Part shown: one piece after another, positions 3,556-7,345 of the stretch | How the letters are laid out: the number at the start of each line of letters is the position of its first letter | Position numbering within the stretch: position 1 is the first letter of the stretch | Assembly: GCA_015060205.1 (NCBI GenBank) | Contig: SUYY01000001.1 | Span: forward strand, 39,717-103,716 | Source: Bacteroidales bacterium | Lineage (GTDB): Bacteria > Bacteroidota > Bacteroidia > Bacteroidales > UBA932 | DNA: 64,000 bases | Direction: 5' to 3' | Position numbers and translations under genes: made by a program | The notes under the pieces: generated by a model | The model's database searches: none | Seen by the model: the letters and a program-made list of their open reading frames with translations, nothing else | What the model was told of the DNA's origin: nothing

Positions 3556-3678
3556 ATGGCCTGTATGCAACTTTATATTTATGAGTCTCCGGAAATACAG
3601 ATTTTGGAGATAAATACGGAAGGTATTCTTTGTGGCAGTAACGAAATCGTTAATGAAAACGAGGGATATTGGGAGTAA
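3556..3678 (+). CDS. small ORF (40 aa) MACMQLYIYESPEIQILEINTEGILCGSNEIVNENEGYWE
   Basis: Complete ATG-TAA ORF; strongly similar to the small ORF at 5514-5630, both immediately upstream of paralogous fimbrillin-like genes. Confidence 0.7.
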   Translation: MACMQLYIYESPEIQILEINTEGILCGSNEIVNENEGYWE

Positions 3679-3695
3679 TCTATTATTTGGTCGAC

Positions 3696-5486
3696 ATGAA
3701 AAAGATAGTATTCGCACTTTTTGCTGCAGTATTCTTCTGCACCGCGTGTTTTGAGATCGAGCAGCCTTATGTATCTGATGAACATACCGGACCTATACTC
3801 TCTGCTACAATAGAGCAGGAAGACTTGACAAAAACCATGTTGGATAATGGGAAAGTACTATGGTCTGCAAATGACAAGATTGCTGTTTTCCTGAAGTCAG
3901 CCACACCGAGCCAGTATGGAGTTCAGTCCTCATTCGTCGGCAAGCCTTATGCAGACTTTTCGAGCATGTCAAGTATTGTTTCTGGAAATGAGTGGGAACA
4001 TGTTGTGGCTTTCTATCCGTTAAGCAGTTCTGTGACCGCTGAGCGAAATAATACTTACTACAAACTGAACATTACTTTACCTGCTGAACAACAGTATGTT
4101 GAAGGTAGTTTCGGAAACGGAGCATTTCCAATGGTGGCGTTAAGCGATGACTATAACCTGGAATTCAAGAATATATGTGGCGGTATAAAACTTCAGTTGA
4201 AGGGTACCATGAAAGTAGCCTCTATAACTGTTACCGGTAACCGTAATGAGAAACTTTCAGGTAAGGCTGTATTGATCGCTTTTATAAATGGTACGAATCC
4301 TTCTCTTACCATGGACGGTACCACTGCGTCTAACTCTGTAAGTCTGAATTGTGGTGCGGGTGTACAACTCAATGAAACCTCTGCGACAGAGTTCATCGTT
4401 GCCATACCTCCTATTACATTCTCGAATGGTTTTAGAGTGACCATAAAGGATACTGATGGAGCTGCTTATATCCTCAAAGCAACCAAGTCAAACACTATCA
4501 AGAGGTCTAGCATTCTCGTCATGCCGGAGAAGACGCTTGAGATATCAAGTATTGAAGACAACCTCAGCGGCTGGACAAATGTTTCGGGAAACTACGGTAC
4601 TCTTCCTAATCATATCAAGATATTCAAATCGCCATCGACTCTTCAGGGAAGGAGTGCAAATGCATATATAGCAGTATCTGATCTCAGAAAAGGCGGAAGA
4701 TGGGATGTATGGAGCGTAGAAGTTGACAGATCTGAAAACAACGGTGCTAACGGATGGCTTACATACAAGACAAACTTCAGTTTCTGCACACCAAGAACAA
4801 TATACGACAGCGACTACTGGCAGAACCCTCCTGTAATCGTGAACGGCGGTTTCTTCTACTATGGCGATGACGGATATCGTTATTCGCAAAGTCTGGCCAT
4901 CCGAAACGGAGATACTCAGAACCCACTGTCATACAACATCAATTACGAGAACAACGGTTCCACCCTTTGTTATCCGACACGCGGTGCATTCCTGGAGAAA
5001 GCAGACGGCACCTTTGACGCTTGCTGGACATACGTGAACTTCACATGGTATGAGCACTTCGTATATCCGGATCCAGCACCTGCAAACAACACCAAACAGC
5101 CAACTCTTAATTATCCTGCAGGCGGCAACTATTTCGCTGCAAAGACCGGTATCGGCGGAGGTCCGGTGCTGATCCGTAACGGCGAGGTCAAGAACACTTG
5201 GTCAGCCGAAATGCTATCAGGAATCAATCCTACAGGAACTGAGCCAAGAACTGCAGTTGGTGTAACCGCAAACAGAGAGGTTGTACTCTTCGTATGTCAG
5301 GGTCGCGGTACTTACGATGGTTACACAACTGGAGAGGTGGCAAACATCCTCCGTAACATAGGTTGCGTCGAGGCGATCAACCTTGACGGTGGAGGATCGA
5401 CATGCATGCTCGTGAACGGCTATCCGGTATTCACCCCATCAGACGGTTCGCAGAGAGCCGTTGCAAGTACTGTGATGGTTTATTAA
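3696..5486 (+). CDS. lipoprotein with fimbrillin-like N-terminus and phosphodiester glycosidase (NAGPA/DUF2233-type) C-terminal domain
   Basis: MKKIVFALFAAVFFCTAC lipobox; 'LTKTMLDNGKVLWSANDKIAVF' fimbrillin-like; 'NLDGGGSTCMLVNG' typical of phosphodiester glycosidases. Confidence 0.8.
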   Translation: MKKIVFALFAAVFFCTACFEIEQPYVSDEHTGPILSATIEQEDLTKTMLDNGKVLWSANDKIAVFLKSATPSQYGVQSSFVGKPYADFSSMSSIVSGNEWEHVVAFYPLSSSVTAERNNTYYKLNITLPAEQQYVEGSFGNGAFPMVALSDDYNLEFKNICGGIKLQLKGTMKVASITVTGNRNEKLSGKAVLIAFINGTNPSLTMDGTTASNSVSLNCGAGVQLNETSATEFIVAIPPITFSNGFRVTIKDTDGAAYILKATKSNTIKRSSILVMPEKTLEISSIEDNLSGWTNVSGNYGTLPNHIKIFKSPSTLQGRSANAYIAVSDLRKGGRWDVWSVEVDRSENNGANGWLTYKTNFSFCTPRTIYDSDYWQNPPVIVNGGFFYYGDDGYRYSQSLAIRNGDTQNPLSYNINYENNGSTLCYPTRGAFLEKADGTFDACWTYVNFTWYEHFVYPDPAPANNTKQPTLNYPAGGNYFAAKTGIGGGPVLIRNGEVKNTWSAEMLSGINPTGTEPRTAVGVTANREVVLFVCQGRGTYDGYTTGEVANILRNIGCVEAINLDGGGSTCMLVNGYPVFTPSDGSQRAVASTVMVY

Positions 5487-5513
5487 ACATATATATCTAA
5501 ATCTATTTCTATA

Positions 5514-5630
5514 ATGGGAACTATTCATTGTTATGAGACTCCGGAGACGACAATTCTGGAGATAGAGCCAGAAGGAATTTTTTGTGGCAGTAATGAAATC
5601 GTTGATGAAAACGAGGGATATTGGGAGTAA
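5514..5630 (+). CDS. small ORF (38 aa) MGTIHCYETPETTILEIEPEGIFCGSNEIVDENEGYWE
   Basis: Complete ORF paralogous to 3556-3678. Confidence 0.7.
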   Translation: MGTIHCYETPETTILEIEPEGIFCGSNEIVDENEGYWE

Positions 5631-5648: not shown

Positions 5649-7238
5649 ATGAAGAAGATTATATTCTCATCTTTACTTGCAGCATTGACATTTGCAGCAT
5701 GTCAGGAGATAGAACAGGCGGCTCCTGAAACATCGAAAACACCTGCTCCTGAGTATCTCATTCTTAAAGGTACTGTCGAGCAGAGCGATTTGACCAAGAC
5801 TACACTGAGTGAGGATAACGAAGTACTCTGGTATGCCGGGGACTGTATCGCTACCTTCCTGAAGTCAGCGACCTTGAATATGTATCAGACAACAGACAGG
5901 GATGCCGGCAAAAGTTACTCGGAGTTTGAGTATATCCTCTCAGGCGACAAGGTCCTCGGAGAGGATTGGGACCACATCGTGGCCTACTATCCATACAGCA
6001 AGGATGTAGAATGTGCCAAGGCTGACGGCTCATACGCCCTTGATGTCGAACTTCCCGCAACTCAATACCACCGCTCTAACAGTTTCGGATTAGGCGCATT
6101 CCCGATGGTAGCAGTCGGTGAGGATACTGACCTCAGATTCAGAAATGTATGCGGTGCCATCAAACTTGAGTTCAAGGGTGATGTGTCTATCAAGGATGTT
6201 ACGATAATAGGTAACAAGAACGAAAAACTCTCAGGTCCGGCTGTTGTGACTGCACTTCCTGACTATGGCATCCCTACCATCAAGATGGCGGAGAATGCAT
6301 CAACATCCGTTACCATGACATGCGACGAAGGCTGGGGAGAATTGCAGAGTGGCGATCTCGTTCTCAGCAATCAGAACATCTTCATCATCACTGTCCCTCC
6401 TGTAGAGTTCAAGGAAGGCTTCACTGTTACAGTGACCGATTCACAGGGCAAGACCTACACCATCACTACGAAAAGATCAAATACAGTATTAAGATCGAGT
6501 ATACTTGTAATGCCTGCTATCGAATTGCCAGAGAAATGTGATTATGTTGATGAGTGGGGAAACAACCTTGGCCAGGGAATCGAAATTGACGGAACCATCT
6601 GGGCTCCGGTCAACTGCGGCTATCACCCTACAGACTTCAAATACGGCAAACTCTATCAGTGGGGTAGAAAATATGGTCAGGGATATTCTTCCGATGGTGT
6701 GACTCCTTCTTTCCAGAATGGACCGGTATCATTGGCTCAAGGCCAGTCAACTGAGAATGAAAACTGCTTCTTTATAGTATCTTCGCCAACAACAGCCACT
6801 AAATACAGCTGGTTGAATGTAGATAACAGAACAGTATGGAACAGCGGTACAGATGCTGCACCTGTAAAGACACAATATGATCCTTGTCCTAAAGGATGGC
6901 GAGTTCCGACTAATGCAGAACTTACTTCATTGAACAGCAATAAGTCATCATGGTCAGAAGACAATACAGGTCTGTCCGGAATCTGGTTTAGTGGCAAAAC
7001 TGCTTATTCTGAAGAAGCCAACAGGATTTTCCTGCCTGCCGGAGGACGTCGAACCAGTCTTAAAGGAGATGCTGAAGAAAGGGAAGACAGAGGATATTAC
7101 TGGTCTTCTCAGGCATATGACAGCAAATATGTTATCGACGGCATGATGCTCCTTCTCGTAAATAGGGAAACCAACATTGCAGCAATCTCTCATGCCGGTC
7201 GTAGTGCTGCACACTCTGTCCGTTGTGTTCAGGAGTAG
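5649..7238 (+). CDS. lipoprotein with fimbrillin-like N-terminus and FISUMP-type (Fibrobacter major paralogous) C-terminal domain
   Basis: MKKIIFSSLLAALTFAAC lipobox; 'LTKTTLSEDNEVLWYAGDCIATF'; 'YDPCPKGWRVPTNAELTSL' and 'AHSVRCVQE' FISUMP signature. Confidence 0.82.
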   Translation: MKKIIFSSLLAALTFAACQEIEQAAPETSKTPAPEYLILKGTVEQSDLTKTTLSEDNEVLWYAGDCIATFLKSATLNMYQTTDRDAGKSYSEFEYILSGDKVLGEDWDHIVAYYPYSKDVECAKADGSYALDVELPATQYHRSNSFGLGAFPMVAVGEDTDLRFRNVCGAIKLEFKGDVSIKDVTIIGNKNEKLSGPAVVTALPDYGIPTIKMAENASTSVTMTCDEGWGELQSGDLVLSNQNIFIITVPPVEFKEGFTVTVTDSQGKTYTITTKRSNTVLRSSILVMPAIELPEKCDYVDEWGNNLGQGIEIDGTIWAPVNCGYHPTDFKYGKLYQWGRKYGQGYSSDGVTPSFQNGPVSLAQGQSTENENCFFIVSSPTTATKYSWLNVDNRTVWNSGTDAAPVKTQYDPCPKGWRVPTNAELTSLNSNKSSWSEDNTGLSGIWFSGKTAYSEEANRIFLPAGGRRTSLKGDAEEREDRGYYWSSQAYDSKYVIDGMMLLLVNRETNIAAISHAGRSAAHSVRCVQE

Positions 7239-7302
7239 ATTATTATTCGACCTATGACAGTGAAATTGTTTTCTATCCGTCACAGGAAGTGCAACTGATT
7301 TT

Positions 7303-7345
7303 AAAGGCTTTCAGGAAATTTGACCTGAGAGCCTTTAATTTTTAT
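7303..7345 (+). terminator. intrinsic terminator after fimbrillin-like/FISUMP gene
   Basis: AAAGGCTTTCAGG/CCTGAGAGCCTTT stem followed by aatttttatt. Confidence 0.75.

Follow-up and report, generated by a model that had tools for sequence, protein, structure and literature searches.

Small ORFs upstream of two fimbrillin-like lipoprotein genes

The window, a 64,000-nucleotide stretch of a Bacteroidales genome, contains two small ORFs, each located directly upstream of a lipoprotein gene (Table 1). The initial annotation had described two ORFs of ~40 amino acids here, each ending 17–18 nucleotides before the lipoprotein ATG, and both were confirmed in position and sequence. ORF-1 encodes MACMQLYIYESPEIQILEINTEGILCGSNEIVNENEGYWE and ends 17 nucleotides before the ATG at 3696, while ORF-2 encodes MGTIHCYETPETTILEIEPEGIFCGSNEIVDENEGYWE and ends 18 nucleotides before the ATG at 5649. 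No Pfam or NCBIfam model matches either peptide. The possibility that the small ORFs are themselves lipoproteins or signal-peptide proteins was rejected, as their sequence has no hydrophobic segment.

Table 1. Features of the ORF-1/ORF-2 locus (positions in the window; LPP, Linear Polyphosphorylated Peptides).
Feature	Position	Strand	Basis
ORF-1, 40-aa putative LPP-like RiPP precursor (leader and core)	3556..3678	+	Family alignment
YxxP motif of ORF-1 (YESP), putative RRE-binding site of leader	3580..3591	+	Alignment
Ser28 codon of ORF-1, candidate phosphorylation site (Cys-x-Ser)	3637..3639	+	Ser conservation in family; analogy to LppA S3
Fimbrillin-like lipoprotein with C-terminal NAGPA (phosphodiester glycosidase) domain; putative cognate partner of ORF-1	3696..5486	+	Pfam PF09992, 5e-28
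ORF-2, 38-aa putative LPP-like RiPP precursor	5514..5630	+	Family alignment
YxxP motif of ORF-2 (YETP), putative RRE-binding site	5532..5543	+	Alignment
Ser26 codon of ORF-2, candidate phosphorylation site	5589..5591	+	Ser conservation in family
Fimbrillin-like lipoprotein with C-terminal FISUMP domain; putative cognate partner of ORF-2	5649..7238	+	Fib_succ_major, 3e-9; fimbrillin-like profile match
Intrinsic-terminator-like hairpin after the ORF-1/gene/ORF-2/gene run	7301..7338	+	Consensus scan only

The two peptides are 71% identical over 35 amino acids. Among the 307 small ORFs of 30–80 amino acids in the window, just one other pair is similar, and less strongly so. This second pair (at ~62933 and 63101, + strand) is 41% identical over 41 amino acids. 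Comparison of ORF-1 with ORF-2 gave a dN of 0.13, a dS of 0.49, and a dN/dS of 0.27, calculated from only 18 synonymous sites. As a baseline for the window, 250 small ATG ORFs include only two that are followed by a recognised lipoprotein, ORF-2 being one of them.

The lipoprotein genes downstream had been described as paralogous and fimbrillin-like, and they do belong to one family. An AF2 model of the N-domain of the protein encoded downstream of ORF-1 (pLDDT 87) was matched by Foldseek to the fimbrillins 3t2l, 3ufi, and 4k4k and to Mfa3 (5nf4) and Mfa4 (5dhm), with TM-scores up to ~0.5; these structures are Bacteroides FimA-type and P. gingivalis Mfa proteins. The N-domain of the partner family is accordingly modelled, and predicted, to have a fimbrillin fold, as in the FimA/Mfa/Fim superfamily of Bacteroidota fimbriae. 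The pairing differs from what is known of those fimbriae, in that a search of open-access full text turned up no description of fimbrillins accompanied by a gene for a small peptide. Sequence models rarely recognise the partners (Mfa_like_1 in 1 of 43), and 40 of the 54 partners of small ORFs fall in one homology cluster. The combination of a fimbrillin-like N-domain with a NAGPA domain in the 3696–5486 protein is an unusual, tip-like fusion. The N-domains of the two lipoproteins are 44% identical, with synonymous sites saturated, whereas the DNA of the 3' halves of ORF-1 (3631–3678) and ORF-2 (5583–5630) is 96% identical, which suggests local exchange or unequal constraint.

A family of peptides with a conserved block and a variable tail

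At least 15 further copies of the family occur in the same genome, nearly all of them 10–30 nucleotides upstream of a fimbrillin-like lipoprotein. Small ORFs lie just upstream of 17 of the 29 fimbrillin-like lipoproteins in this genome (two recognised by eye), and several of the lipoproteins lacking one follow another lipoprotein in the same run. A profile search of 24 other genomes of the genus located copies in 17, and such recurrence far exceeds what chance would give. The earlier proposal of a peptide family conserved at the protein level and tied to fimbrillin-like genes is borne out. The family extends to several further families of the order and to one genus outside it, where members are again upstream of lipoproteins; the pairing with fimbrillin-like lipoproteins recurs in several families and two orders. 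The gap in 48 precursor–lipoprotein pairs has a median of 18 nucleotides (interquartile range 12–23). A small-ORF query against named genomes returned two loci, the query being too short or the scope too narrow.

We collected 83 members and aligned 38. Members share a Y-x-x-P motif, an alternating hydrophobic run, a [Cys/Ala]-x-Ser segment at constant distance, and a variable acidic tail; the residues conserved among them are Tyr, Pro, Ser, and a Trp near the C-terminus, which occurs within the final eight residues in 61 of 83 members. The block from YxxP to Ser has a fixed length of 20–21 residues in the 83 members, and Ser is located at +19 or +20 from Tyr in all 50 members of a set chosen without requiring Ser. 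Strict conservation of a Cys had been claimed, but this position is Cys in 49 of the 83 members and Ala in 34, and a catalytic or disulfide-forming Cys was ruled out because Ala often takes its place. AF2 predicted no globular fold for the small peptide. Membership in a known family was ruled out as well, with no Pfam or NCBIfam match among 16 diverse members.

In a Prevotella-like lineage, related peptides are encoded directly downstream of large secreted proteins, and comparison of the profile of this set with that of the main set gave a homology probability of 97.6%. One locus of this lineage (L059) has the usual order, with the small ORF upstream of a lipoprotein. The preceding secreted proteins at nine other loci (L088, L092, L095, L096, L099, and L102–L105) share a C-terminus resembling NLAGQRV..GLYIVNGKKVIVK. 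It resembles a T9SS tail; the curated models, with a single sub-threshold match, do not support this assignment, and the resemblance is simply noted. Two further arrangements depart from the usual one. At L064:1501-2610 (genome G270), a 370-amino acid frame runs from small-ORF sequence into a lipoprotein-type signal region and a fimbrillin-like protein; this is one case, and either a genuine fusion or the recent loss of a stop could account for it. At L011 and L086, a repeat-like intergenic sequence, CATTCCCGACCTGATCGGGAATCT, lies between the small ORF and the lipoprotein, ~110 nucleotides before the latter, where the usual gap is short.

Shine-Dalgarno signals are generally absent from Bacteroidota mRNAs, which makes translational coupling plausible, and the constant position ~18 nucleotides before the lipoprotein start would suit small ORFs that act as uORFs (leader or arrest peptides, or translational couplers) controlling translation of the next fimbrillin. 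We consider this very improbable. It is the amino acids rather than the RNA that are conserved: RNA structure is ordinary (fold z-scores of -0.65 and -0.57), and no terminator was found in the 17–18 nucleotide gap, on which grounds a uORF, arrest peptide, or RNA element was set aside. The conserved block is also distant from the stop, being followed by 3–37 tail residues, and the Prevotella-like copies are downstream of secreted proteins rather than upstream.

A putative maturation gene set that co-occurs with the small ORFs

A search for PqqD gave matches in nine of 11 family-bearing genomes. In most of the ORF-positive genomes examined, the genes around PqqD comprise an HprK-like kinase, an S24/S26-type peptidase, PqqD itself, an MsbA-like ABC exporter, and often an NTP_transf_5 protein (PF14907). 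The last is present in many clusters and was not found in five genomes of the genus that have the other four genes (G005, G006, G008, G009, and G022). A control genome, that of Bacteroides ihuae, carries both PqqD and NTP_transf_5. In several genomes, a small ORF, its fimbrillin, and the maturation genes form a single co-directional run; at L157 the order on one strand is small ORF, fimbrillin, HprK, S24, PqqD, NTase, and ABC. Precursor, fimbrillin, and maturation genes are also combined at L159, L160, L193, and L196, and precursor and maturation genes are within 10 kb of each other at L257. At L263, a small ORF leads an HprK-S24-PqqD-NTase-ABC run that has no fimbrillin, an arrangement that also speaks against translational control of a fimbrillin. 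Two Sphingobacteriales-like maturation clusters (L158 and L161) adjoin glycosyltransferase and polysaccharide-export-like genes, as the Bacillota LPP clusters do. In the genome of the window, which is ~81% complete, HprK and ABC genes are adjacent (contig C73, L261) and overlapped by an S24 gene on the opposite strand, and PqqD and NTase are on contigs C51 (L151) and C8 (L205), so that PqqD, NTase, and HprK are on three contigs; at that completeness, the arrangement could be more fragmented here than in related genomes.

Co-occurrence was evaluated in a sample of 394 genomes of the order. Credibility of the small ORFs was judged by reading the hits, dropping those inside long frames or with stops, before the search for HprK, for which a threshold of E<1e-60 yielded 29 genomes. 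HprK was present in 19 of 21 ORF-positive genomes as compared with 10 of 373 others (Fisher p 3.7e-23, a value that overstates independence, as the genomes share ancestry). One genome counted as ORF-negative (G283) has a precursor in its cluster, that at L257. Two ORF-positive genomes, G318 (89% complete) and G191 (99% complete), had neither HprK nor PqqD detected. PqqD alone is common in the order (246 of 394 genomes), and its association with small ORFs is modest (p 0.005). The phylum and class samples added just two ORF-positive genomes, G419 and G775, each with HprK; in the class-level sample HprK occurs in six of 293 genomes, including both family-bearing genomes from outside the order. 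Five of 54 profile-reported small ORFs are within 10 kb of PqqD or HprK, with 0.43 expected (p 8.5e-5). The sole standing negative-example PqqD locus is L200 (G190); G352, the genome of L199, has an LPP-like cluster elsewhere (L255).

The association with HprK is left unexplained by uORFs, and it also bears on the idea that the small ORFs are cytoplasmic chaperones or export adaptors of fimbrillins with no RiPP chemistry. That idea fits one copy per lead fimbrillin and the lack of a signal peptide. It is hard to reconcile with the HprK co-occurrence and the shared operons, with the lack of a globular fold in AF2, and with the copies that have no fimbrillin, and we regard it as highly unlikely. 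The initial annotation had offered a chaperone, leader, regulator, or processed peptide; the last of these stands, and the other three do not, as far as the evidence goes, given L263, the position of the Prevotella-like copies, the ordinary RNA structure, and the co-occurrence with an RRE, kinase, peptidase, and exporter.

Residues expected of active enzymes are conserved in the maturation proteins. The kinase P-loop (SGTGKST) and NDD are conserved, being intact in 43 of 44 kinases. HprK-related kinases A and B and the SynChlorMet protein ScmC (TIGR04352, TIGR04355, and TIGR04249) are distant relatives of the cluster kinase (E 5e-7 to 4e-4), and the cluster kinases are not members of these families, scoring 29 bits against curated cut-offs of 200 or 125. 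The peptidases, which correspond to Pfam Peptidase_S24 and have as best NCBIfam match sigpep_I_arch (1e-10, below its cut-off), carry the full Ser/His/Asp pattern in 39 of 43 cases, and the remaining four also have SM, HR, and GD. Among 20 PqqD sequences, N35 is conserved in at least 90% and D73 is invariant. The PqqD profile matches the solved lasso RREs TfuB1, PbaB1, and TbiB1 and, weakly, LppB 9x8z (E 0.39, below TfuB1).

Several of these features recall lasso peptides of the paeninodin/pseudomycoidin type, which share an HprK-like kinase, an NTP_transf_5-type transferase, a PqqD RRE, an ABC exporter, and a [Y/W]xxP leader. Small ORFs that are lasso precursors would account for the YxxP leader, for a discrete PqqD that scores lasso RRE models, and for the kinase and NTP transferase found together as in paeninodin-like clusters. 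Unlike in lasso clusters, no macrolactam cyclase or transglutaminase-type B2 protease was found among the cluster genes scanned (L157 and L158), nor was one of matching size in the other maturation runs listed, and an S24/S26-type peptidase occurs in place of B2. The peptides also have neither a penultimate Thr nor a conserved ring acid. Lasso precursors were set aside on the lack of a cyclase or B2 in these scanned clusters and listed runs, and we give the idea next to no weight.

Comparison with LPPs and a possible link to fimbriae

The gene set corresponds more fully to that of LPPs, a RiPP class of Bacillota published in May 2026 (Popov et al. 2026, PMC13381572), which was stated to be restricted to Bacillota and to have no known role. 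LPP precursors have the consensus YxxPxVLxHQxIxFETxxS, in which YxxP is the RRE-binding motif, as in lasso leaders, and is contacted by N33 and D70 of the RRE LppB (PMC13381572). The further LPP genes encode the HprK-like kinase LppK, the SpI-like peptidase LppS (S29, H68, and D93), the exporter LppD, and the transferase LppN; the leader is cleaved after T-1, and one to four phosphates are placed on S3 of the core AQS, S3 of LppA being the phosphosite (PMC13381572).

Common to the two systems is a gene set of HprK-like kinase, discrete RRE, SpI-like peptidase of archaeal type, and MsbA-like exporter, joined in many of the Bacteroidota clusters by the fifth LPP gene, an NTP transferase, along with a cluster-linked precursor that has a conserved N-terminal YxxP block and a variable C-terminus. 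No cyclase was seen among the Bacteroidota cluster genes scanned. The [A/C]-x-Ser of the Bacteroidota precursors falls at the place of the phosphorylated S3 in the LPP core (Ala-x-Ser3). The peptidase Ser/His/Asp matches S29/H68/D93 of LppS, and N35 and D73 of PqqD match N33 and D70 of LppB, aligning with the N and D of both LppB 9x8z and TfuB1. The systems differ in phylum and in that the Bacteroidota precursors are many per genome, dispersed, and mostly paired with fimbrillins. By column counts, the HQ and FET leader positions of LPPs are not conserved in Bacteroidota; the Tyr–Ser distance is 19–20 as compared with 18, making the leader one to two residues longer; the NTase is absent from some genomes; and similarity of the RRE to LppB is weak. 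As the leader consensus is only partly shared and the RRE was compared with one LPP PDB chain only, we call the system an LPP-like variant rather than a member of the LPP class.

These observations lead to a reading that is absent from the initial annotation. We think it likely that the small ORFs are RiPP precursors of an LPP-like system, with a core that acts with the adjacent fimbria, for which we infer the chemistry, cleavage site, and fimbrial role. The sequences themselves show the existence of the family and its tie to fimbrillins, the set of partner genes with its co-occurrence and shared operons, and the conservation of active-site and RRE-contact residues. Judged by these, the peptides probably undergo trimming, phosphorylation, and export through machinery that had been reported from Bacillota alone. 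A single maturation set in each genome would handle many precursors encoded at scattered chromosomal sites. The PqqD-type RRE would bind the YxxP leader, the HprK-like kinase would phosphorylate the Ser conserved in [Cys/Ala]-x-Ser, the S24/S26-type, signal-peptidase-like peptidase would remove the leader, and the MsbA-like exporter would carry the acidic core with its Trp into the periplasm, where the core may act with the fimbrillin encoded beside its precursor, for example as a fimbria component, modifier, or regulator.

RRE-guided phosphorylation, leader removal, and export are suggested by gene content and conserved residues, whereas the fimbrial role is suggested by adjacency and by correlated divergence: distances among precursors correlate with those among their cargo (Mantel rho 0.34, p 0.0005), a pattern that common descent alone could also yield. 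The peptides might instead be LPP-like precursors whose mature products are signals, antimicrobials, or envelope factors, with adjacency to the fimbria reflecting co-regulation rather than the target. Consistent with this, Bacillota LPPs have no known role and sit in polysaccharide loci (PMC13381572), the two Sphingobacteriales-like clusters lie beside glycosyltransferase and export genes, the L263 precursor has no fimbrillin, and the Prevotella-like copies follow other secreted proteins. The recurrence of the fimbrillin-like pairing across families and orders argues against such a separate target, as does the distance correlation with the caveat above, and we consider a target other than the adjacent fimbria rather unlikely, though well worth keeping in mind. 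More tentatively, the LPP-like precursors may belong to a fimbria-dedicated variant found throughout Bacteroidota, in which dozens of dispersed precursors share one maturation set and every phosphopeptide belongs to the adjacent fimbria as a cognate part or modifier; we see this as an attractive possibility, with the balance somewhat against it. Open-access literature contained nothing specific on HprK or PqqD in Bacteroidetes or on a RiPP with fimbrillin.

The LPP-like reading would explain a large set of unannotated small ORFs unnamed by Pfam and NCBIfam gene models, and LPP-like machinery in Bacteroidota would extend the class to another phylum. The pairing with fimbriae offers a concrete candidate function for LPP-type peptides; if it holds, fimbriae would be the first known target of the LPP class of RiPPs. 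For the Bacteroidota themselves, the LPP-like gene set points to a modification step of fimbriae that has so far gone undescribed.
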